Of a stretch of 64,000 nucleotides of DNA, positions 3,281 to 50,826 are shown piece after piece. The notes under the pieces were generated by a model that saw only the letters and a list, made by a program, of their open reading frames with translations, searched no databases and was not told where the DNA came from. The position numbers and the translations under genes are program-made. Source of the stretch: Fontisphaera persica (GTDB lineage Bacteria > Verrucomicrobiota > Verrucomicrobiia > Limisphaerales > Fontisphaeraceae); the NCBI RefSeq assembly GCF_024832785.1, contig NZ_CP116615.1, forward strand, positions 620,001-684,000. Direction: 5' to 3'. The stretch's first letter is position 1; every line of letters begins with the position of its first letter.

Positions 3281-4405
3281 ATGATGCAAAACTTTGTGCC
3301 TCGCTGGTTATTGGTGGGCGTTGCCATGACGGGGGGCGCGTGGGCTGCTGTGCCTGCCCCGGTGGTGGAACGGAATGAGTTTGGCAAGACCGCCGATGGG
3401 ACGGTCATTGAGATTTTCACGTTGCGCAATGGCCGCGGCATGAGCGCCAGGGTCATGACGTACGGCGCCATTTTGGTGGACTTGCACGTCCCCGATCGGG
3501 AGGGCAAAACCCGCGACGTGGTGCTGGGTTTTGATCAACTGGAGCGCTATCTCAAGGGGCATCCCCTCTTTGGCAGCACGGTGGGGCGCTTTGCCAACCG
3601 CATCGGTGGCGCGCAGTTTGTACTCAACGGCCAGACCTACAAACTCGCAGCCAACAGCGGCAAAAACCACATCCATGGAGGACGCAGCGGCTTTGATAAA
3701 AAAGTCTGGAAAGCCGAGCCCTTTTCCACGGCAACGGCCGCGGGGGTACGGCTGCGTTACACCAGCCCCGATGGAGAGGAGGGGTATCCCGGCAATTTGC
3801 AGGTGACGGTGACCTATTCTTTGACGGCAGACAATGAATTGCGCATTGACTACGAGGCCACCACGGACAAGGACACCATCGTCAACCTGACCAACCACAG
3901 TTACTTCAACCTGGGCGGGCATGACAGCGGGGATGTGCTGGGCCATGAGTTGCAATTGTTCGCAGATTTTTACACGCCGGCGGACGAGGGTTTGATTCCC
4001 ACCGGTGAGATTGCCTTTGTCAAAAACACACCCTTGGACTTCACCCAGCCCACCCCCATTGGGGCACGCATTAAAGAACTGCCCAAGACTCGTGGCTATG
4101 ACCACAATTTTGTGTTGAAATCCGACGGAGTGACGCCGGCCTTGGGGGCGCGGGTCTATGAGCCGAAAAGCGGGCGGGTCATGGAAATGTGGACCACCGA
4201 GCCGGGCGTGCAGCTTTACACCGCCAATCACATGAATAATCAGCCGGGCAAGGGTGGAGCGGTTTATCAGCAGTATCAGGGCCTTTGCCTGGAAACCCAG
4301 CATTTCCCGGATTCCATCAACAAACCGCACTTTCCCAGCCCCATCCTTCGGGCCGGCCAAACCAAAAAATCCACCACGATTTTCAAGTTCAGCACGCGCT
4401 CCTGA
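3281..4405 (+). CDS. galM: Aldose 1-epimerase (mutarotase), exported
   Basis: 374 residues. It interconverts alpha and beta anomers of aldoses. Catalytic features are in place: NHIHGG (His130/132), TNHSYFNLGG with the expected catalytic acid His206, and CLETQHFPDS with the expected base Glu338. The family core is about 340 residues; the extra N-terminus (MMQNFVPRWLLVGVAMTGGAWA) reads as a signal peptide, so it likely acts outside the cytoplasm. Start is the ATG at 3281, where a second Met follows directly; the ribosome site is weak. It is divergent from the Gfo/Idh/MocA gene and followed after 111 bp by an AsmA-like gene. Neighbours point to extracellular sugar processing. Confidence 0.92.
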   Translation: MMQNFVPRWLLVGVAMTGGAWAAVPAPVVERNEFGKTADGTVIEIFTLRNGRGMSARVMTYGAILVDLHVPDREGKTRDVVLGFDQLERYLKGHPLFGSTVGRFANRIGGAQFVLNGQTYKLAANSGKNHIHGGRSGFDKKVWKAEPFSTATAAGVRLRYTSPDGEEGYPGNLQVTVTYSLTADNELRIDYEATTDKDTIVNLTNHSYFNLGGHDSGDVLGHELQLFADFYTPADEGLIPTGEIAFVKNTPLDFTQPTPIGARIKELPKTRGYDHNFVLKSDGVTPALGARVYEPKSGRVMEMWTTEPGVQLYTANHMNNQPGKGGAVYQQYQGLCLETQHFPDSINKPHFPSPILRAGQTKKSTTIFKFSTRS

Positions 4406-18757: not shown

Positions 18758-19986
18758 CGGCGTTTCAGACCCAGCACGCTGAGGAAGAAGCTTGAGAAAA
18801 TGGTCTGGATGCCCAGCACCAGGGCCAGCAGGGCGGGAATGATGGTGCGCAGGGTTTCGGTGGGTTGCAGCGGGCCAAAATGGGTCTGACCCCAGCTCCA
18901 AACGGCATACACGGAGCCAGCCAGACCCATGAGGGTAAGCACAAGGCCGGCCGTTAATCCCACTTCCAGGGTGATAATGCGGTAAAGTTTTTCCAGCCGC
19001 GGGTCAGACGGGAGCAAACCCTCGCTGATGGCAAAAACCTTGGTGAAGACGGCAAATAAGACGGCTTGATAGCCCATCAGCACCATCATGGCTCCGTAAA
19101 GCAGGGTATGCACATCCAGGGTCACGTCGCCCACTTGTCGAGGGCCGGGCAACAGCCAGCCCATGAGCAGAATGCCCAGCAGCATCATCAAACCGCCAGG
19201 AATAAGAAACAGCCAGCGCGGGCTGTACAGCAGCATGAAACGCAGATGCCGCCAGCCGTCGCGCCAGCGGCGCAGGTGGGGCGGGCGGCCGCGGCCGTCG
19301 GGGGACAGGGTGACCGGCACCTCGGCAATTTTCAATCCAAGCAGGGCAGCCTTGACCACCATTTCGCTGGCAAATTCCATGCCGGTGGTACGCAATGCCA
19401 TGCGTTCAGCAGCTTCCTTGGTGAAGCCGCGCATACCGCAGTGGAAATCGCGCGCCGGCGCCTGGAAAAACAAGCGGCCAAGCCCCGTGAGCACGGGGTT
19501 GCCCAGGTAACGGTTTAGCCAGGGCATGGCCCCCGGTTGAATGCCGCCGCTAAAGCGGTTGCCCATCACCAGGTCATAACCTTCGCGCAGTTTTTCCACA
19601 AATGGCCAGATGGCGGACCAGTCGTAACTGTCATCCGAATCGGCCATGATGAGATAGTGGCCGCGCGCGGCGGCAATGGCGCCCATGAGCGCGGCCCCGT
19701 AGCCTTTGACCGGGACCTCAACCACGCGCGCGCCCAGGTTTCGCGCAATGTCCTGGGAGCCATCAGTACTGCCGTTGTCGCCGACTACAATTTCGCCGGC
19801 AAGGCCGTGGCGCTCGAGGGCAGCTTGCGCTTTCCGGATGCAATTGCCCAGCGTTTTGGCCTCATTCAGGCAGGGCATGATGAGGCTGACCTCCGGCTCG
19901 GCATGGTTTTTGGTTGCATTCGGCACGGGCAGAAATATGGGCACTCGAGGACGGGGAATCAAACAGGAAATGGCCGGAATGCACAC
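18754..19986 (-). CDS. Membrane-anchored family 2 glycosyltransferase (dolichol-phosphate-mannosyltransferase type)
   Basis: 410 residues from a GTG at 19986; the next Met lies inside the catalytic motif, so a non-ATG start is likely. GT-A domain: VSLIMPCLNEAKTLGNCI, IVVGDNGSTDGS, and ADSDDSYDW as the metal-binding DXD-type site. It is followed by two to four transmembrane helices (PGGLMMLLGILLMGWLL, LEVGLTAGLVLTLMGLAG, IIPALLALVLGIQTIFSSFFL). This matches the DPM1/GtrB-like group that charges polyprenyl phosphate with a sugar at the inner membrane. It is followed with a 4-bp overlap by a methyltransferase. Divergent from the broken Gfo/Idh/MocA gene. Confidence 0.86.
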   Translation of the reverse strand: MCIPAISCLIPRPRVPIFLPVPNATKNHAEPEVSLIMPCLNEAKTLGNCIRKAQAALERHGLAGEIVVGDNGSTDGSQDIARNLGARVVEVPVKGYGAALMGAIAAARGHYLIMADSDDSYDWSAIWPFVEKLREGYDLVMGNRFSGGIQPGAMPWLNRYLGNPVLTGLGRLFFQAPARDFHCGMRGFTKEAAERMALRTTGMEFASEMVVKAALLGLKIAEVPVTLSPDGRGRPPHLRRWRDGWRHLRFMLLYSPRWLFLIPGGLMMLLGILLMGWLLPGPRQVGDVTLDVHTLLYGAMMVLMGYQAVLFAVFTKVFAISEGLLPSDPRLEKLYRIITLEVGLTAGLVLTLMGLAGSVYAVWSWGQTHFGPLQPTETLRTIIPALLALVLGIQTIFSSFFLSVLGLKRR

Positions 19987-20164
19987 GTGGCCAGCGAGTA
20001 AAAGGAAGCCTTGTTTGCCTCAGGGGGGCGCTCTGTGCGGTGTTGCAGGCATCACAGTCGCCTGCCCAGCACATGGCTTTGAAGCCCTCGGGCGCAGCCG
20101 AACTCCGGCGCGGCCACGAATGGAAAAATCTTGTGCGGCTGCAAGGGGCATGTCAAATAGGCTC

Positions 20165-21232
20165 ATGCAAAAAAACATCCCTGAAGTCTCTGTTTCATTG
20201 AGTCGCCGTCGTTTTTTGTCCGGCGTGGGCGCGGCCACGGTCACCTTTAGCATTCTGGCCCCCCAAAGCGTGTTTACTGCCGAAACCGGCCCCAAAATCA
20301 AAGTGGGCCTCATTGGCGCCGGCGGGCGCGGCCAGTGGATTCTCAAGTATTTCAAGGACCACGGCGGCTATGAGATTGCCGCAGTCTTTGATTATTTTGA
20401 AGACCGCGCCAAAGCGGCCGGCGACAAATACCAGGTGCCGGACAACATGCGCTTCAGCGGGCTGTATGGTTACCGCAAGCTGCTGGAGAAAGGGGTGGAT
20501 GCCGTCATTGTTCAGTCGCCGCCTTATTTCCATCCGGAGCAATGCGCGGAAGCGGTGGAGGCGGGGAAGCATGTTTATCTGGCCAAGCCACTGGCGGTGG
20601 ATGTGCCGGGCTGTTTGTCCATCGTGGCCAGCGGCCAGAAGGCGACGCAAAAGAAGCTGGTGTTCCTGGTGGATTTCCAGACGCGCGCTCATCCGTCGTA
20701 CCAGCAGGCCATCCAACTGGTGCATGAGGGCAAAATTGGGCGCATCGTTTGTGGCGAGGCCAATTACCAGTGCAGTCTGATGTTTGCCAGCATGGATGCG
20801 CGTTTCCGCAAAGACCCCAAAAACCCCGAGGAACGTCTGCGGGCGTGGGCGATTGACCGGGTGTTGTCCGGCGACATCATCACGGAGCAGAACATTCACG
20901 CGTTGGATGTGGCTTCCTGGGTGCTCAACGCCGAGCCCATCAAGGCGTACGGCACAGGCGGCAAGGCGCGTCCCTTCCTGGGGGATTGTTGGGACCACTT
21001 CGCCTGCATTTTCTATTACCCGGAGGGCATCATTCTGAGCTTCAGCTCTAAACAGGTGGGCAAAGGGTGGGATGACATTCAGTGCCGCATTTATGGCACC
21101 GAGGGTACCCTGGACACCCACTACGGCGGGCCGGTGCGGTTGCATTGCGATGATGCCTACAACGGCGGCATCACCAACACCATTTACGAGCTGGGCGTGC
21201 AGAACAACGTCAAGACATTTTACGACAGCATT
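20165..21232 (+). pseudogene. Gfo/Idh/MocA oxidoreductase, 5' part, split by an IS
   Basis: The first 356 codons of a Tat-exported oxidoreductase (SRRRFLSGVGAATVTFSILAP). Rossmann motif IKVGLIGAGGRGQWIL and the family motif in the AKPLAVDV form, Ala in place of the usual Glu. ATG 20165 is used; ATG 20150 (MSNRL) is an alternative. The host sequence stops at FYDSI, where a 1.19-kb IS begins. Translation would run on 51 codons into the IS (to 21385) and lose the last 54 native residues. Joining to 22439-22603 after removal of one duplication copy gives an unbroken 410-residue protein, so the insertion is probably recent and the gene otherwise intact. Confidence 0.9.
21218..21232 (+). repeat. 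Target-site duplication, left copy
   Basis: TTTTACGACAGCATT, identical to 22424-22438. It encodes part of FYDSI in the interrupted gene. A 16th matching base (G) could belong to either the duplication or the element end. Confidence 0.88.
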
Positions 21233-21259
21233 GGGAAAGACTGGGTAGATCATGACCCC
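21233..21259 (+). repeat. Left terminal inverted repeat of the IS
   Basis: GGGAAAG, then A, then CTGGGTAGATCATGACCCC. It matches the reverse complement of 22397-22422 except for the extra A at 21240. Similarity resumes with GTGG shortly inside. Confidence 0.9.
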
Positions 21260-21303
21260 CCCGTGGTTAAGATCAACGTGTTGAGTGCACGCCGCAAGGA
21301 TGA

Positions 21304-21337
21304 GCTGCTGCACCTCCTCCGGAGGAGGTGCAGCAGC
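21304..21337. repeat. Perfect 34-bp palindrome in the IS leader
   Basis: GCTGCTGCACCTCCTCC at 21304-21320 is followed without spacer by its exact reverse complement at 21321-21337. It lies between the left inverted repeat and the transposase start. In RNA it would form a very stable stem, and it carries GGAGG, a perfect ribosome-binding sequence, in its 3' arm. A role in blocking read-through expression of the transposase is plausible. Confidence 0.85.
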
Positions 21338-21365
21338 GGCGCGCCCCATCTGCTATCCTCCCGGC

Positions 21366-22423
21366 GTGCACACCACCTACTTTGAATTGTACCGTATGCG
21401 CACCCACCGCCATTGGTTGCGACAAAAACTCGTCGCCTTCGCCAAAACCCACGGCATCAAAGCCGCCGTCCGCGAGTTCGGCTGTTCCCGCAACACCGTC
21501 CGTAAATGGCTCCGACGCCACGTGCCCGGCAAGCCCTCCTCCCTCCAAGAACACAGCCGCCGCCCACGACGCTCCCCCCGCCGTATCCCCTCCGGCCTCG
21601 AAGGCCAAATCGTCAAACTCCGCCACCAAACCGGCTTCGGCGCCGAACGCCTCCAGCGCGAATTCGCCCTCCCCTGCAGCCACAACGCCATCGCCCGCGT
21701 CCTCCGCCAACACCATCTCCTCCGCCCACGCAAAAGAAACCCGCCACCAAAAAACTCCTCCGCGCCCTCAAACGGAACTGGCCACTCTTCTCCCAACTCT
21801 CCGCCGATACCAAGTATTTACAGGACATTCCCCATTACTGGCCCCAAATGAACCGCCTCCACCTCCCCCGCTTCCAATACACCGTCCGCGAACCAGTCTC
21901 CGGCGCCTGCTTCACCGGCTACGCCGACGAACTCTCCAAATCCTACGCCACCCTCCTGGCCACACAACTCTCCGCCCACCTCGCCGCCCACGGCGTCAAC
22001 CTCACCACCCTGGTCTGGCAAACCGACAACGGCAGTGAATCCAAGTCAACCAACACCACCAAGGCCTCCCCGCCACCGTCCGCGCCCTCGGCTCCGACCA
22101 CCGCTTCATCCCTCCCAAACGCTACACCTGGCAAAGCGACGTCGAAACCGTCCACCGCCTGGTCGAAGACGAATTCTTCGACCGCGAAACCTTCTCCAGC
22201 CCCCAAGACTTTTGGGCCAAAATCACCACCTACTGGCTGTACTTCAACCTCGTCCGCCCCAACCGCGGCAAAGAATGGCAAAGCCCACTCCAAATCCTCA
22301 ACGCCAAGGCCCCAGCCCTCGCCGGGGCCCTAATCCACTGGCTCCCCCTCAACCTCTCCCAACCCCACCATCCCGACTTGCCTCCACCCCTCCACCGGGG
22401 TCATGATCTACCCAGCTTTCCCT
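21366..22423 (+). pseudogene. IS481-like transposase, two frameshifts
   Basis: Likely starts at GTG 21366. N-terminal helix-turn-helix (AAVREFGCSRNTVRKWLRR), then an integrase-core domain spread over three frames. Frame 1 runs to the A-run near 21737-21739; inserting one A there gives KRKPATKKLLRALKRNW in phase. Frame 2 carries YWPQMNRLHLPRFQYTVRE and the catalytic-type TDNGSE, ending near 22040; inserting one T gives GSEFQVNQHHQGLPATV. Frame 3 carries IPPKRYTWQSDVETVHRLVE with the final Glu region. So two single-base deletions break an otherwise full-length gene. No stop is seen in the last frame before the right end; it reads into host DNA to 22581. Confidence 0.85.
22397..22422 (-). repeat. 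Right terminal inverted repeat of the IS
   Basis: Reads inward on the minus strand as GGGAAAG then CTGGGTAGATCATGACCCC, pairing with the left end at 21233-21259 but lacking one A. Confidence 0.9.
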
Positions 22424-42979: not shown

Positions 42980-45900
42980 ATGATGCGTTATTTCCTCTTT
43001 TTCTTTTTCGCCTTGGCTTCGGTGGCTCAGGCGGCGTTGGTGGGGCCGAATGGGTATCAGGAGAATTTTAGCACGCAGCCTGGGGCGGGGGATTGGAGCA
43101 CCTACAGCATTGGGGGCAGTTCGACTTCCAGCGGGGTGAGCAATGATTTGGTGAATGCGGCGCAGGCGTTGAATGCGGCGGACATCAACGTGGCGTTGGG
43201 GGCCGATGGGGGCAATCCGCCGGGGGCGACGGGCAACGGGGTATGGTCGTCGAGCGGGGGGTATGTGCAGACGCGGCCGACGGGGAACAACGGGACGGTG
43301 TTGATGCTGCGGTTGCAGAATCAGAGCGGGTCGGCGGTGTCGCGGGTGAGTTTGACGTATGACTATATCAAGGCGACGGAGAGTGGGGAGCAGATACCGG
43401 GATTTTTGGTGTTGTACAGTACGAGTGGGCTGGCGGGGAATTGGGTGGTGGTGCCGGAGTTGAGTTTGGCGGGGCCGGGGCGGTTGAGTGCGAGTTGGGA
43501 GGTGAACTGGCCGGTGGGGGGTCAGTTGTATGTGATGTGGGTGGATGACAATGCGGACGGGATTACGGACGAGGGGAATCAGATAGACAACGTGGTGGTG
43601 AGTGTGGTGTCGGCGGTGCAGGTGCCGGCGGTGGTGACGCGGTCGCCGACGAACGTGGTGGTGGGGGAGTTGGGGCGGGTGGAGTTGGTGGGGGGAGCCA
43701 GTGGGAATCCGGCGCCTGGGTATCAGTGGTATCGGGAGGGGGAGGCGGTGGTGGGGGCGACGGGGGCGGTGTGGGTGGTGGAGGAGGTGCCGTTGAGCTG
43801 GAATGGGTCGCGGGTGTGGTTTGTGGCGCAGAACGTGGTGAGCAACGTGACGCAGTCGGCCACCAGTGCGGTGGCAGTGGTCACCGTGCGCGCCGATACC
43901 AATGCGCCTGTCCTGTTGGGGGCATACGCTGAAGGCCTGAATTTGGTCCAGCTCATTTTCAATGAATCCATTTCTTCCGAAACAGCAACGAATGTGGCCA
44001 ATTATGCCATTACCAGCGGTGGGGGTAACCTCGTCGTTTCCAACGCGGCGGTGGGCAGCGCCAAAACCAACATTCTCCTGACGGTCAGTCGCATGACGGA
44101 AAATGTGACCTACACAGTGCGGGTAAATAATCTGCGGGATCGTTCGCAGGCAGGCAATCTGCTGGCGGCCAACAGCACGGCCACCTTTGTTGCCGTGAGC
44201 TTCAACCAGGCGAATGTGGGCAGCACCAGCGCACTGGGCGCTTATTCCACCGTGAGCGGCGGCTACAACGTCACCGCCGGCGGGTCGGACATCAACAGCA
44301 CCAGTGACCAGTTCTTTTTTGTGTATCAGCAGCGCACGGGGGATTTTGATGTCAGCGTGCGGGTGGCCAACTTCAGCCCGTCGGATGTGTGGGCCAAGGC
44401 CGGCCTGATGGCGCGTGAAAACCTCAATGCCAACGCGGCGTTTGCCGCTTCTGTGGCCACGCCGGGGGCGGTGGGTGTTTTATTTTTGTCGCGCACCGCG
44501 GCGGGCGGTTCCGTGAGCATGTCGGGCGGGCAGCCGGTGAATCATCCCTACACCTACCTTCGCTTGAAACGCTTCGGCAGTGTGTTCACGGGATTTGTCA
44601 GCTATGACGGCCTGAACTGGGTCCAGACCGGCACGGCCACCATCGGCATGCCTTCCACGATTTATTTTGGGCTGGCCACGGCGTCCCGCAGCACCAACCG
44701 GCAGACGCAGGTTGAGTTTCGGGAGCTTGCCTCGGTGGTGAATCCGCAGGCAGCGCAGCCGCGCCTGACGCGTGAGCCGCCCGGCCCCTCGAGCCGCAAG
44801 ACACCGGTGGCCATCACGGAAATCATGTACAAACCGGGCGCCTGGGCGGGCACCAATGATTTGGAATTTGTGGAAATCTACAATTCCAATCCGTATTTCG
44901 AGGATCTCTCCAACTGGCGGCTGGCCGGGGACATTGGTTTTCGTTTTCCCACCAATTTCCTGCTGGGCGGCAATGAATACCTCGTCATTGCGAAGGACCC
45001 GGACGCCGTCCGGCACGTTTATGGCATCACGAATGTCATGGGGCCTTACGAGGGACGCCTGGCCGAATCTGGGCGTGTCCGGTTGCGCACCGAAATTGAC
45101 GCCATTGTTCTGGAAGTCAATTACCGCAGCGAAACCCCGTGGCCTGCAGGGGCGGATGGCACCGGCCATTCACTGGTGTTGGCGTGTCCCTCTTATGGTG
45201 AAGATTGGGCCGAGGCATGGGATATTAGCGCCCAGGTGGGCGGATCGCCCGGGCGCATGGACGGTTTGCGGCAAACCGCCCGGCACAATGTGGTCATTAA
45301 TGAGTTCCTGGCACACACGGATCTGCCGGCGGTGGATTTTATTGAGCTATACAATCGCAGCACACAGCCGGTGGACATTTCCGGTTGCGCTCTTTCGGAT
45401 AATCCCTCCACCAATAAATACATTTTTCCGCCCGGCACCACCCTCCCCGCGCGGGGTTTTCTGGTCTTGACCGAAACCGCCCTGGGCTTCGCCCTGGATG
45501 CTGGCGGGGAAACGATTTATTTCCGCAACGCCGAAGACAACGCGGTGTTGGACTGCGTGCGATTCAAGGGCCAGGCCAACGGGGTTTCCAGCGGGCGCTT
45601 TCCTGACGGAGCCAGTGACATCTACCCGCTGCAGGCGCAGACCCCCGGCACCAACAACAATGCCATTCGCATCCATGATCTGGTGATCAACGAGGTCATG
45701 TACAAGCCGTTGTCGGAGCTGGAGGATGACGAATACGTGGAATTGCACAACCAGGGCACAAATGCCTGGAATTTGGCTGGCTGGCGTTTGCGGGATGGCA
45801 TCGCCTATACCTTTCCCGCCAACACCGTGATCCCGGCCGGCGGTTACCTCGTGGTGGCCAAGAATCGCACGAATCTGCTTGATAAATATCCCGGGCTTAA

Positions 45901-48900
45901 CCCAGCCATCGTGCTGGGCAACTATTCCGGTTCGCTGGCCAATCGCGGCGAGCGACTGGCACTGGCGATGCCGGATCAGGTTTGGACCATCTCCACCAAT
46001 GCCCAGGGCCAGACGGTGACCAACTTCGACACCATTTATGTGGATGTGGATGAAGTCGCCTACCGCCGCGGCGGCCAGTGGGGCAAGTGGGCCAATGGCG
46101 GCGGCAGCAGTTTGGAACTTAAGGATCCTCGTGCCAATCATCGGCTGGCTGCCAACTGGGCCGATAGTGATGAAACGCAAAAAGCCCCCTGGTGTACGGT
46201 GGAGTTCACCGGCCCCATGGACCACGGCGCGCAGACCGCTTCGCATTTTGAAGTGCTGTCCCTCGAAGCGGGCGAATTTCTGGTGGATAACGTGGCCGTG
46301 CTGAACACCAGCGGCCAGAATTTGATTTCCACCGCCGACAGCAACTTTGAAACAGGGGGTCCGGGCTGGCTCATGCGCGGCAATCACGCCCGCTCCACTG
46401 TGGACACCTCGGGCGGGGAAGGCGGCGGGCGTTGCCTGCACGTGCGGGCGAGCGGGCGGGGGGACACCCTGGCCAATCGCTGCCTGGTGCCCCTCACCAC
46501 CGTGCCCAGCAGCGGCACTTTCACCCTGCGGGCCAGGGTGCGCTGGTTGTGCGGCTGGCCGGAAATGTTGGTTCGCCTGCACGGCAACTACATTGAGGCC
46601 AGTCGGCGTCTGGAAATCCCCACCAACCTGGGCACGCCGGGCGCGCGCAACAGCCGCTATGAGACGAATGCGGCTCCGGCGATTTATGAGGTGTCTTATG
46701 CGCCTGTTTTGCCGGCGGCGAACGAAGCCGTGGTGGTGACCGCGCGGGTGCATGATCCGGATGGGGTGACCAACCTGGTGTTGCGTTACCGCTTGGACAC
46801 TGCCGGCTCCTACACCTCCGTAACCATGGTTGACAATGGCACGGGTGGTGATGCGGTGGCGGGCGACGGCCTTTATTCGGCCACCATCGCGGGCCAGGCT
46901 TCCGGTGCCTTGGTGGCCTATCAAATCTCAGCCACCGACCTGCGCGGGCGTAACGCCGTCTTTCCCGCTGGGTCAGGCATCAATACGCGTGAGCATCTGG
47001 TGCGGTTTGGCGAGTTGCAGCCCGTCTCCAGTTTCGGCACGTACCGCATGTATTTCACCCAGAATGCGGTCAACTCGTGGATTAACCGGCCGGTGCTGAG
47101 CAATGAGCCAGTGGAGGGCACGATGGTTTATGGCAATTTCCGGGTCATCCACCACATCGGCGCCCGGTACGCAGGCAGTCCCTATCATCAAGGATTTAAC
47201 AGCCCGGTGGGCAACAACTGCCATTACTCGGTGGAATTGCCCGAGGATGATTTAATGCTGGGGACGGAGAACTTCAACAAGCTGCACGGCCCCGGCAATG
47301 GTTCATTCGATGACCCCACCCTGCAGCGGGAGCAGGTGGCTTATGCTGTAGCGCGGTATGTGGGGTTGCCCTGGCTTTATCGGCGCTACGTGGCCGTGTA
47401 TGTCAACGGCGTCCGCCGCGGCACCTTCATGGAAGACATGCAAACACCGAATGGCGATGTCATCGAACAATACTGGCCGGATGATCCCGACGGCCAGCTC
47501 TACAAACTCCAGCCTTGGTTTGAACAAAACGATGTCGCCTCCGGCGCCTCCTCGCCGGTGAACAACCAGTCGTGGTGCACCCTCAATGCCTATTACAGCC
47601 AGGGTCAGCATAAACTGGCGCGTTACCGGCATAATTACCTGACGCGCGCGGCCAAAGGCACCGCCAATGATTACACCAATGTCTTTCAACTGGTGGAGGC
47701 TGCTTCCCAAACCGGCTCCGCCTTCGTGTCCGCCATGGAGCCGCTGGTGGACACCGAGCAATGGCTCAAGACTTTTGCCGTCGAGCATGCGGTGGGCAAC
47801 TGGGACAGCTTCGGCAACCGCAATGCCCAAAACATGTACGGCTACAAGGGCGATGTGAACAAATGGCGGCTGATTATCTTCGACCTCAACATTGTGTTGA
47901 ACAGTCCCAACGACGGCGGCACGGAGTCCGATGCTCCGGGCGCGGCATTGTTTCAGTATAATTCCGCCGACATGAACATGCCGAAGTTTTACAATACACC
48001 GATTTATCGGCGCGCCTACTGGCGCGGTCTCAAGCAGGTTTGCCTCGGGCCGTTCAGCAACCCGCGTTTGAATGACTTTATGGATGTCCGTTATCAGGCC
48101 TTTGTGCTCAACGGCCAGACCAGCGTGCGGGCGCCCTCCGCGGTTAAAACCTTCATCAGCTCCGCCCGCGCGAGCATTCTTAATCAGATTGCGGCGGAAG
48201 ATGCCGCCTCATTCAGCGTGCAGGCCATTCCTTCCAGCCAGAACACCAACCTGCTGGTCATTCGCGGCCAGGCCCCGGTGGATATCTTTACCATCACCAT
48301 CAATGGCAAGGCCTATCCCATCAACTGGACCAGTGTGCGCGACTGGAGTGTTAATTACGTCCTCAACTCGGGCAGTAATAGCTTGCTCATCGAAGGCCGG
48401 GATGCGCAGGGGAATCCCATTCCCGGCATGGAAATCTCGCGTGCCGTGACCTTTACGGGCACCCCACCGGATCCGCAAAACACGGTGATGTTCTCCGAAA
48501 TTATGTACAACGCGGCAGTGACCAATGCGGAATACGTGGAAATTTATAATGCTTCCACCAATGTCACCTTCGACCTGGCCGGCTGGCGCGTCAATGGCTT
48601 GGGCTATGACTTCCCCTTGGGAGCCTTGCTGCTCCCACAGCAGCGGCTCATCTTGGCCAAAGACCGGGCCGCCTTCACCGCCGCCTACGGCAGCGGCATT
48701 TCAGTGTTTGACGTGTTTCCCGGGAATCTGCAGAAAGACGGCGAAACCCTGACGCTTTTCCGCCCCGGTACCAACGGCCAGGAAATTGTGGTGGACCGGG
48801 TCCGCTACGAGCCGAATTTGCCGTGGTCCTTGAAGGCGGCCGGGGGCGGGGCGGCATTGCAGTTGGTGGACGGGCGGCGGGACCACAGCCGTCCGTTGAA

Positions 48901-49528
48901 CTGGGCGGACGGGCAGGGATGGAAGTTCAAGTATTTCAGTTTGTCCAACCGGGCCACGTTGAATTGGACCAATTTATATTTTCAACTTTCCAATGCAGGA
49001 GAGGTGTGGGTGGATGATTTGCGGGTGGAGGAGGGGACCGAAGTGGGTGGAGGGACGAACTACGTGGTGAACGGGGATTTTGAGGCGCCGCTGGAGGGGA
49101 CGTGGGTGAAGGGGACGATGACCCAGCCGACGGTGCGAGATGGGAGTGTGAGCCGGAGCGGGCAGTACAGTTTGCGGCTGGTGGCGACGGGGCGGGTGAC
49201 GCAGGCGGCGCAGTCGTTGTCGCAGCCGTTGGTGTTGAAGACGGGGATGACGTACACGGTGAGTTTGTGGTATTTGCCGAGCGACAGTGTGAGCAATTTG
49301 ACGGTGTATGTGACGGCGTTTGTGACCTCGAACTTTGTGGTGCACGCTTCGATGTATGGGCGGTCGCCGGGGTTGGGGAATCCGGTGGAGGGTTTGTTGC
49401 CGGAGCTGCCGGGGGTGTATTTGAACGAGGTGCAGGCGGAGAATGGGGCTGGGGGGGGGTGGACAACTATGGGGAGCGGGAGCCGTGGGTGGAGTTGTAC
49501 AATGGGGGGAGCAATGCGGTGGATTTGA
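42980..49528 (+). CDS. Giant secreted LTD/CotH-type protein, N-terminal part up to a frameshift
   Basis: 2182 codons in the first frame; the native reading ends near codon 2160, at the G9 tract at 49451. Signal peptide MMRYFLFFFFALASVAQAA. Order: a beta-rich domain at about 20-210; an Ig-like domain at about 213-310; an SbsA-like segment to about 410; a DUF1349-like beta-sandwich (FDVSVRVANFSPSDVWAKAG) to about 590; lamin-tail domains near 606, 770 and 900 (ITEIMYKP, VINEFLAHT, VINEVMYKP); a linker; a CotH-kinase-like domain at about 1352-1710 (ENFNKLHGPG, VGNWDSFGNRNAQN, LIIFDLN); a fourth LTD near 1835; and the start of a fifth (VYLNEVQAENG). Probably cell-surface. Confidence 0.85.
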   Translation: MMRYFLFFFFALASVAQAALVGPNGYQENFSTQPGAGDWSTYSIGGSSTSSGVSNDLVNAAQALNAADINVALGADGGNPPGATGNGVWSSSGGYVQTRPTGNNGTVLMLRLQNQSGSAVSRVSLTYDYIKATESGEQIPGFLVLYSTSGLAGNWVVVPELSLAGPGRLSASWEVNWPVGGQLYVMWVDDNADGITDEGNQIDNVVVSVVSAVQVPAVVTRSPTNVVVGELGRVELVGGASGNPAPGYQWYREGEAVVGATGAVWVVEEVPLSWNGSRVWFVAQNVVSNVTQSATSAVAVVTVRADTNAPVLLGAYAEGLNLVQLIFNESISSETATNVANYAITSGGGNLVVSNAAVGSAKTNILLTVSRMTENVTYTVRVNNLRDRSQAGNLLAANSTATFVAVSFNQANVGSTSALGAYSTVSGGYNVTAGGSDINSTSDQFFFVYQQRTGDFDVSVRVANFSPSDVWAKAGLMARENLNANAAFAASVATPGAVGVLFLSRTAAGGSVSMSGGQPVNHPYTYLRLKRFGSVFTGFVSYDGLNWVQTGTATIGMPSTIYFGLATASRSTNRQTQVEFRELASVVNPQAAQPRLTREPPGPSSRKTPVAITEIMYKPGAWAGTNDLEFVEIYNSNPYFEDLSNWRLAGDIGFRFPTNFLLGGNEYLVIAKDPDAVRHVYGITNVMGPYEGRLAESGRVRLRTEIDAIVLEVNYRSETPWPAGADGTGHSLVLACPSYGEDWAEAWDISAQVGGSPGRMDGLRQTARHNVVINEFLAHTDLPAVDFIELYNRSTQPVDISGCALSDNPSTNKYIFPPGTTLPARGFLVLTETALGFALDAGGETIYFRNAEDNAVLDCVRFKGQANGVSSGRFPDGASDIYPLQAQTPGTNNNAIRIHDLVINEVMYKPLSELEDDEYVELHNQGTNAWNLAGWRLRDGIAYTFPANTVIPAGGYLVVAKNRTNLLDKYPGLNPAIVLGNYSGSLANRGERLALAMPDQVWTISTNAQGQTVTNFDTIYVDVDEVAYRRGGQWGKWANGGGSSLELKDPRANHRLAANWADSDETQKAPWCTVEFTGPMDHGAQTASHFEVLSLEAGEFLVDNVAVLNTSGQNLISTADSNFETGGPGWLMRGNHARSTVDTSGGEGGGRCLHVRASGRGDTLANRCLVPLTTVPSSGTFTLRARVRWLCGWPEMLVRLHGNYIEASRRLEIPTNLGTPGARNSRYETNAAPAIYEVSYAPVLPAANEAVVVTARVHDPDGVTNLVLRYRLDTAGSYTSVTMVDNGTGGDAVAGDGLYSATIAGQASGALVAYQISATDLRGRNAVFPAGSGINTREHLVRFGELQPVSSFGTYRMYFTQNAVNSWINRPVLSNEPVEGTMVYGNFRVIHHIGARYAGSPYHQGFNSPVGNNCHYSVELPEDDLMLGTENFNKLHGPGNGSFDDPTLQREQVAYAVARYVGLPWLYRRYVAVYVNGVRRGTFMEDMQTPNGDVIEQYWPDDPDGQLYKLQPWFEQNDVASGASSPVNNQSWCTLNAYYSQGQHKLARYRHNYLTRAAKGTANDYTNVFQLVEAASQTGSAFVSAMEPLVDTEQWLKTFAVEHAVGNWDSFGNRNAQNMYGYKGDVNKWRLIIFDLNIVLNSPNDGGTESDAPGAALFQYNSADMNMPKFYNTPIYRRAYWRGLKQVCLGPFSNPRLNDFMDVRYQAFVLNGQTSVRAPSAVKTFISSARASILNQIAAEDAASFSVQAIPSSQNTNLLVIRGQAPVDIFTITINGKAYPINWTSVRDWSVNYVLNSGSNSLLIEGRDAQGNPIPGMEISRAVTFTGTPPDPQNTVMFSEIMYNAAVTNAEYVEIYNASTNVTFDLAGWRVNGLGYDFPLGALLLPQQRLILAKDRAAFTAAYGSGISVFDVFPGNLQKDGETLTLFRPGTNGQEIVVDRVRYEPNLPWSLKAAGGGAALQLVDGRRDHSRPLNWADGQGWKFKYFSLSNRATLNWTNLYFQLSNAGEVWVDDLRVEEGTEVGGGTNYVVNGDFEAPLEGTWVKGTMTQPTVRDGSVSRSGQYSLRLVATGRVTQAAQSLSQPLVLKTGMTYTVSLWYLPSDSVSNLTVYVTAFVTSNFVVHASMYGRSPGLGNPVEGLLPELPGVYLNEVQAENGAGGGWTTMGSGSRGWSCTMGGAMRWI
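43030..43880 (+). other. Block of strongly G-ending codons inside the giant gene
   Basis: Gly is almost always GGG, Val GTG, Leu TTG, Ala GCG and Thr ACG from about 43030 to 43858, whereas the sequence after about 43880 shifts to GGC, GTC, CTG, GCC and ACC. It also contains dense G-runs (43671-43713) able in principle to form G-quadruplexes. Seen by eye, without a calculated index. Confidence 0.7.
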
Positions 49529-49790
49529 CGGGGTGGTATTTGGCGAACCAGTACACGAACCTGGGGCAGTGGGCGTTTCCGGCGGGGACGGTGTTGGGGC
49601 CTGGGGAGTATCGGGTGGTGTGGTGCGATGGGCAGGAGGGGCAGAGTGCGGGGACGAATCTGCACACGAACTTTCGGTTGAGCGGGGGGGCGGGGTCGGT
49701 GGCGCTGGTGATGCCGGTGGACGGGGGGTTGAAGGTGCTGGATTATTTGAACTACACGAATCTGGCGCCGGACCAGAGTTATGGGGATTA
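48830..49790 (+). other. Second block of G-ending codons
   Basis: Same codon style as 43030-43880, strongest between 49000 and 49780, and including the G9 tract. It ends sharply near 49790, where C-ending codons return. It covers the region between the fourth LTD domain and the end of the fifth. Confidence 0.7.
49451..49459 (+). repeat. G9 homopolymer at the frame junction
   Basis: Nine G bases after GAATGGGGCT. The first frame reads ENGAGGGWTT and runs to a stop at 49528; the -1 frame reads GVDNYGEREPWVELYN, a correct LTD continuation. G10 (or G7) would join the two frames into one open frame to 50826. Confidence 0.9.
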
Positions 49791-50826
49791 TCCCAACGGC
49801 CAGATGTTCTATCGCCAAAAATTCATGTATCCCACACCAGGTTGGGCCAACAACACCGATCTGGCGTTGCCGGTGGTGCGGATCAACGAATGGATGGCCG
49901 ACAATACCCTCGTGCTAACGCCCGACCAGCGCTATGAAGATTGGTTCGAGCTCTATAATCCCACCACCAATTTCATCAACCTCCAAGGGTTGTATTTAAG
50001 CGATAATCCCAGCAACAAGCTTCAATTCCGCATTCCCGCGGGTTATACCATTCCGCCGCGCGGCTACCTCTTGGTCTGGGCTGACAACCGGCCCGAGTTG
50101 AACAGCACGAATGAAGTGGATTTGCATGTCAACTTTGCCCTCGCGCGCCGCGGCGAGTCCATCGGCCTCTACGGGCCGGACGGCTCCGTGATTGACGAGG
50201 TGACTTTCGGGGACATGACCGGCAACGTGGTGCTGGGGCGTTATCCTGACGGCAGCTCGCTCATCACCACCTTGAGCCGGCCCACCCCGCGCGGAGCCAA
50301 TGTGGCCTCAATCACTCCGGGTAATACGCCGCCGCAACTGGCGCCTTTGCCCAACCGCAGCCTGCTGGTGGGGCAAACCTTGCAGCTCGACTTGGTGGCG
50401 ACTGACGTTGACCAGCCCCCGCAAAATCTCGCCTTTAGTTTCCTGCCGCCCACGCCGGTTTCGGTGACCTTGACCAATGGCAACCGGTTGCGCTGGACTC
50501 CCACTCTGGCCGAGGTGGGCACGCATCAAATCGTGGTGCGGGTTACGGATGACGGCACGCCACCCATGAGTGCCACCAACACCTTGCAAGTGACCGTGGG
50601 CGCGCTTCCACAGTTGCCACCGGGTGGTCTTTCCCTGGCCAACGGCCGGTTGAGCCTGACCTTTGCCACGGTGCCCGGCGTCACCTACCGCCTGCAATAC
50701 AAGCAGCAGTTGACGGATGCCGTCTGGCTGGACGTGGCGCCTCCCACCAACGCCGCAGGAGCTACGATAACCTTGCAGGACAACCTGACTGCCCCGCAGC
50801 GCTTCTATCGCCTCACGGCGGAATAA
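49459..50826 (+). CDS. Giant secreted LTD/CotH-type protein, C-terminal part in shifted frame
   Basis: 456 codons continuing the protein that begins at 42980. It holds the rest of the fifth LTD (WVELYNGGSNAVDLTGWYLA), a sixth LTD (VVRINEWMADN, WFELYNPTTNFINLQGLYLS), a cadherin/Ig-like domain (DLVATDVDQPPQNLAFSF) and a C-terminal module ending RFYRLTAE. It has no start of its own; an open frame upstream to 49102 is a Gly/Val shadow of the other frame. If the G9 tract changed length by one base the complete protein would be about 2615 residues. Confidence 0.85.
   Translation: MDNYGEREPWVELYNGGSNAVDLTGWYLANQYTNLGQWAFPAGTVLGPGEYRVVWCDGQEGQSAGTNLHTNFRLSGGAGSVALVMPVDGGLKVLDYLNYTNLAPDQSYGDYPNGQMFYRQKFMYPTPGWANNTDLALPVVRINEWMADNTLVLTPDQRYEDWFELYNPTTNFINLQGLYLSDNPSNKLQFRIPAGYTIPPRGYLLVWADNRPELNSTNEVDLHVNFALARRGESIGLYGPDGSVIDEVTFGDMTGNVVLGRYPDGSSLITTLSRPTPRGANVASITPGNTPPQLAPLPNRSLLVGQTLQLDLVATDVDQPPQNLAFSFLPPTPVSVTLTNGNRLRWTPTLAEVGTHQIVVRVTDDGTPPMSATNTLQVTVGALPQLPPGGLSLANGRLSLTFATVPGVTYRLQYKQQLTDAVWLDVAPPTNAAGATITLQDNLTAPQRFYRLTAE

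Follow-up and report, generated by a model that had tools for sequence, protein, structure and literature searches.

Terminal modules of a giant LTD/CotH-class gene appear to be homogenised with a paralogue and are biased towards G on the coding strand

This study concerns a giant gene in a 64-kb stretch of the Fontisphaera persica chromosome (bases 620001–684000 of contig C1 of genome G000, which comprises 4.73 Mb in a single contig). We refer to this stretch as the window, and coordinates without a contig prefix are positions in it. The open reading frame (ORF) of the gene (42980–49528, plus strand) spans 2182 amino acids and encodes a predicted secreted-type giant of the LTD/CotH class, with an N-terminal signal-like segment, an N-terminal domain, immunoglobulin (Ig)-like and DUF1349-like domains, four LTD domains, CotH and CBM_4_9. 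Two of its modules are nearly identical to those of a single paralogue, whereas the region between them has diverged. We propose, with a probability of roughly 0.6, that these modules undergo recurrent ectopic gene conversion with this one paralogue and that coding-strand G is preferentially fixed within the converted tracts only.

The first-pass annotation of this DNA, made from the sequence alone, had suggested that outer modules of the gene were exchanged with a paralogue or a differently biased source. The paralogue was indeed found: when the two blocks were searched against the rest of the genome, both had a near-identical partner in one gene 229 kb away (L001, G000:C1:891.8–898.7 kb). 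Tract 1 (43021–43908, plus strand) differs from G000:C1:891829–892716 at 2 of 888 positions (99.8% identity), and tract 2 (48790–49812, plus strand) is 96.5% identical to the same paralogue. It includes a less homogenised island (48954–49043, plus strand; 74 of 90 columns match), the first 30 bases of which are the least G-rich of the tract 2 interior, while the remainder is G-rich. The intervening 4.9 kb (43909–48789, plus strand), which are of ordinary composition (G 0.298, C 0.296), show 55% DNA identity and 46% protein identity between the two genes, so that the pair combines sharp tract borders with diverged flanks left in place. Moreover, tract 1 is only 89.5% identical to its orthologue in a sister species, and identity is hence higher within the genome, as concerted evolution requires. 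From 48956 on, tract 2 is also 79–83% identical to a second pair at about 721.4–722.3 kb and 1585.2–1586.1 kb of G000:C1. When set against silent cassettes, the partners found are long open genes. Exchange between these paralogues, that is, concerted evolution by ectopic gene conversion, is nearly certain on the strength of these comparisons.

A draft genome of the sister species, which belongs to the same genus (G001), provides an independent view of both genes. The amino acid identity of its orthologues is 0.874 for the middle of the window gene (contig C6) and 0.875 for that of the paralogue (contig C50, locus L072). Along tract 1, only a few of about 285 sites distinguish C6 from C50 until 43908, where the two part again, and both copies are 7–13% different from the window; the tract 1 borders, 43021 and 43908, are conserved in this species. 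Eleven contig ends of the draft fall in the two modules, with C70 carrying the flank of the window gene and C5 that of the paralogue. Exact contig-end overlaps of 141 bp connect C6 and C50 to C35, C64 and C52 to C49, and C70 and C5 to C6; this length is probably the assembler's k, and an overlap proves identity over at least 141 bp, not more. The exact overlaps and the tract 1 pattern together indicate that, in both species, the same genes are paired through the same modules, which were homogenised separately in each. An assembly artefact might be invoked since the differences in G-run length between copies resemble homopolymer errors, but its probability is practically negligible, given that a separately obtained draft genome has the same modules, the same bias and the same pairs.

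The mosaic codon use that the first-pass annotation had described within the gene is real. Sliding third-position composition and maximum-likelihood change points both recover two blocks of G-ending codons: in most 50-codon windows of 43130–43890 and 49000–49770, the third-position frequencies of G (G3) and C (C3) are 0.65–0.84 and 0.04–0.20, compared to about 0.3 and 0.4 in the gene middle. The change points on G/(G+C) delimit G-rich cores at 43021–43842 and 48781–49752, near the previously noted blocks at 43030–43880 and 48830–49790. These blocks are not the only ones of their kind. In a sample of LTD-related loci, comprising the window and 20 loci picked by similarity to its protein, all 8 blocks with a maximum G3–C3 of at least 0.8 fall within tracts that are near-identical between genes otherwise diverged from each other. 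They belong to four pairs, namely the window gene and L001, L003/L004 (98.4% identity over 953 bp), L007/L008 (98.1% over 1977 bp) and L009/L015 (98.6% over 1563 bp). In the latter two, the copies are located on opposite chromosome strands, and each copy is G-rich on its coding strand.

The borders of these blocks had been called sharp, which applies to their outer side: G/(G+C) rises abruptly on entering a block and then continues to increase. Pooled over five tracts, it starts at 0.60 and 0.55 within the outermost 50 bp and reaches 0.7–0.8 further in, a climb that takes about 100 bp at the 5′ end and about 350 bp at the 3′ end. At most borders, the G-rich core lies within the identity tract; the exceptions are window block 2, whose 5′ edge lies 9 bp beyond its tract, and L015, which runs past its tract on the 3′ side.

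To describe the bias by codon class, we pooled six block samples from the four pairs (window block 1, block 2 of L001 and of L004, L008, and parts of L009 and L015, the tract of the last pair being sampled twice). Fourfold sites in the blocks have frequencies of 0.02 for A, 0.06 for C, 0.90 for G and 0.03 for T, compared to 0.05, 0.43, 0.41 and 0.11 in the rest of the same genes. Codons for lysine, glutamate and glutamine (K/E/Q) end in G in 160 of 163 cases (466/851 in the rest), and leucine shifts to TTG (103/152 vs 264/775 elsewhere in the genes), while twofold C/T codons are unchanged, with 189 of 387 ending in C in the blocks and 1180 of 2331 in the rest. The bias is thus visible at third positions, as first claimed, but not in codon endings alone: compared with distant homologues, valine replaces isoleucine 60:0 and 61:0 in the blocks, against 389:302 in the middle. 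As alanine and aspartate show no such gain, the shift towards G-rich codons at the protein level is partial. In terms of composition, a DNA-level force acts in the tracts that, on the coding strand, gives G an advantage over the three other bases and treats C and T alike. Selection on codons or messenger RNA, keeping G-ending codons in the modules, would likewise favour G wherever a synonymous G exists and leave C and T neutral, as would a preference for NNG codons. Because the bias stops at the tract, i.e. recombination, borders within one ORF, codon-level selection does not account for it; it is also very unlikely in view of the amino acid replacements, some of which go to G-rich codons, and of homologous modules elsewhere that do not have the bias.

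The differently biased source proposed by the first-pass annotation found no support, given that the paralogue is the same mosaic, that the sister species has the pattern at the same borders and that G is maintained rather than decaying. By contrast, the exchange of modules withstood the comparison with distant orthologues that had been suggested as a means of refutation: in other families, the homologous regions show no G enrichment, with the exception of L039, which is G-biased along the whole gene. A search for related loci yielded one distant relative, in a metagenome-assembled genome of Verrucomicrobia, with 35% identity in the best segment. In its general form, this explanation states that the G-rich modules originated in a genome with a different bias, spread among the paralogues and inherited their composition, which would fit the sharp borders and the modules shared by otherwise diverged genes. 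We nevertheless regard it as improbable. The bias is common to modules of several kinds (Ig repeats, CBM plus LTD, and others) and to both species, homologous domains in 19–22 other loci are mostly free of it, and 95% of G sites are kept between the species, while 37% are lost in the rest of the gene.

These last values derive from third-position G at matched amino acids. It was kept between the species at 167/172, 125/130 and 167/179 tract sites (459/481 in total), compared to 292/460 in the middle of the window gene (Fisher p 3e-37), with amino acid identities of 0.74–0.87 in the tracts and 0.87 in the middle. The tracts are somewhat slower overall, too, since twofold C/T sites changed at 39/134 positions there and at 154/339 in the middle (p 0.001), but this difference is much smaller than the G3 contrast. 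In the middle of L001 and its C50 orthologue, G was kept at 365 of 413 sites, with 325 gains. The C50 middle exhibits a gene-wide shift to G-ending codons (C to G 223, G to C 22 against L001) and has no repeat partner in G001.

With the sister species used to polarise them, the young differences between the paralogues, counted where local identity is at least 0.8, comprise 13 changes from G to another base, 1 towards G, 3 others and 5 ambiguous ones. Fixed differences, polarised with the other pair, amount to 61 from G, 41 towards G and 50 others. The two sets differ with a Fisher p of 0.017 (0.08 for a strict subset of 6:0), a pattern suggestive of mutations that remove G and of fixation that favours it. 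One small test and one large one point to a fixation bias. The alternative is a local mutation bias to G on one strand, by R-loops, repair synthesis or an error-prone polymerase, where G-rich runs would recombine more and conversion would be a consequence. It would explain why non-repeat regions are also G-shifted (L090, L091, a nuo-like operon and the C50 middle) and why C to G changes so far exceed G to C changes between C50 and L001. We deem it rather unlikely, as the young tract differences run 13:1 in the opposite direction and G000 has no DnaE2 above the cut-off (two polymerase III alpha-like genes matched, both below it) and no reverse transcriptase match. For the latter, PF00078 (RVT_1) gave no match in G000 at E 0.001 or better, whereas the control matched in 3 of 14 genomes; without such a match, a diversity-generating retroelement or exchange mediated by complementary DNA is likewise unlikely. 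A GC-to-CG signature has reportedly been associated with ImuABC in Caulobacter, which the consulted passages of PMC7198004 did not confirm.

How exclusive the link between conversion and G enrichment is can be judged from two background sets, each of 20 loci of 20 kb. In the first, spread-out set, the same skew occurs in tract-sized windows at 0 of 3620–3840 positions and none of 1280 900-bp windows reaches an absolute skew of 0.4; of 1233 windows of the LTD-related loci outside the tracts and an insertion sequence (IS)-like element, none does so either. One block in the first set, in the nuo-like gene of L070, also reached a G3–C3 of 0.80. The notion that every strongly skewed region represents a conversion tract holds for these loci, but is false in the second set.

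Several observations weigh against the explanation we favour. In the second set, 13 of 1280 windows reach 0.4, in L090, L091 and an IS-like copy in L098. L090 (G000:C1:930001–950000) is a 20-kb domain with a GC skew of 0.32 and G on the plus strand; as its minus-strand genes are C-rich, the skew is a chromosome-strand effect that does not follow genes, and other regional skew domains of either sign exist across the genome. The nuo-like operon is single-copy, yet G-rich, the C50 gene middle is G-shifted without a partner, and the probable coding strand of the IS-like element is C-rich. Conversely, the L095/L099 repeat family (85–95% identity; presumably Rhs-like C-termini, judging from a motif) has no strong G bias: third-position G about equals C and skew is modest, with 200-bp pieces of up to 0.48. 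It follows from L090/L091, the nuo-like operon and L095/L099 that conversion is neither necessary for G enrichment in this genome nor always enough. In addition, the young-difference test comprises 14 sites, and the fixed counts also show an excess of changes from G; the association is carried by four gene pairs (five tracts), all of one protein class, to which the claim is limited; the genome-wide partner searches cover the queried blocks only; and recombination itself is deduced from sequence comparison.

As for the gene itself, it had been treated as one continuous gene, and the G-rich blocks do belong to the same protein. The ORF, however, stops at 49528, and G-rich coding resumes in another frame from about 49460. 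This second open frame (49102–50826, plus strand), the coding part of which begins there with two LTD and an Ig-like domain, continues the protein past a frameshift at a run of nine G (49451–49459, plus strand); the paralogue, open for 2550 codons, has seven G at this point, and the frame is lost here in this assembly. Many differences of 1–2 bases in G-run length, some of them frame-breaking, are also seen between the near-identical copies of the L007/L008, L009/L015 and L003/L004 tracts; like the window case, they may reflect either sequencing error or true slippage. A search with the window protein returned 86 matching stretches in G000.

Elsewhere in the window, a 1.19-kb element (21232–22423), which reads like a transposase by its translation, breaks into an oxidoreductase-like ORF (19706–21385) and is 99.6–99.7% identical to G000:C1:1263217–1264408 and 2661562–2662754. 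Arrays of short repeats occupy L057 (100–3600), next to genes that we take to be a type III CRISPR system, and L017 (1–690), and L086 (G000:C1:200001–220000) has a GC content of 0.449 over 20 kb, compared to about 0.6 elsewhere.

Conversion with fixation towards G could work as follows. The terminal modules, as the comparisons indicate, are kept homogeneous by recurrent ectopic conversion limited to shared homology, and the bias would arise from conversion itself, for which we see about even odds. Heteroduplexes of one polarity relative to transcription might form, for example when a donor strand anneals to a coding strand displaced by an R-loop, and the G allele would win when they are resolved; coding strands rich in G may in turn stabilise R-loops and feed back. 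Conversion would then cause the preference and transcription would set its polarity. We only tentatively suggest that a preference for coding-strand G, oriented by transcription, is inherent in ectopic conversion in this lineage, as a drive specific to base and strand and distinct from GC-biased conversion, and, with similar reserve, that this drive might suffice to raise G at fourfold sites to 90% and to substitute valine for isoleucine in tracts of secreted giants. Two other models do not fit. Biased gene conversion has been described as favouring GC regardless of strand, but G and C do not gain jointly here, as fourfold C is 0.06 vs 0.43 and twofold C/T sites are unchanged. A mismatch-repair blind spot, where C–C escapes and G–G is repaired, predicts unaffected K/E/Q sites; these moved to 0.98 G, and the model is rejected in that form.

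Among titles and the openings of abstracts, and with subscription journals outside the search, we found nothing that describes conversion tracts with a G bias specific to one strand. If true, such a tract-limited bias would allow the polarity of recombination intermediates to be read off sequence data alone and would offer a naturally occurring test system for how bacteria resolve heteroduplexes. The case also cautions that block-wise codon bias within a gene need not signal foreign DNA.

Among known systems, mammalian switch regions are described, in the part of the source consulted, as losing R-loops and switching as G density goes from 46% to 29% (PMC4245955). The G density of 43.5–52.3% in the tracts and 29.8% in the gene middle offers a suggestive parallel only; class switching is another type of recombination, and R-loops are merely postulated here. 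In mouse cells, strand-biased mismatch resolution is set, according to the excerpt consulted, by break position and not by base (PMC9001825). GC-biased gene conversion, as outlined for primate X palindromes in the consulted part of PMC8981503, resembles our case in that a conversion bias shifts the composition of the converting sequence, but ordinary GC bias is strandless, whereas here coding-strand C falls, G rises and C/T sites remain static. For concerted evolution in prokaryotes, the sections consulted describe same-species paralogues that are closer than orthologues, a state persisting through speciation (PMC6053082); a word search for GC content, biased and Verrucomicrobi gave 0 hits in this text. 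The window-gene pairs are alike in being homogenised within species and across speciation, but differ in that only the terminal modules of giant genes are affected while the rest diverges, and in their extreme bias towards one base.
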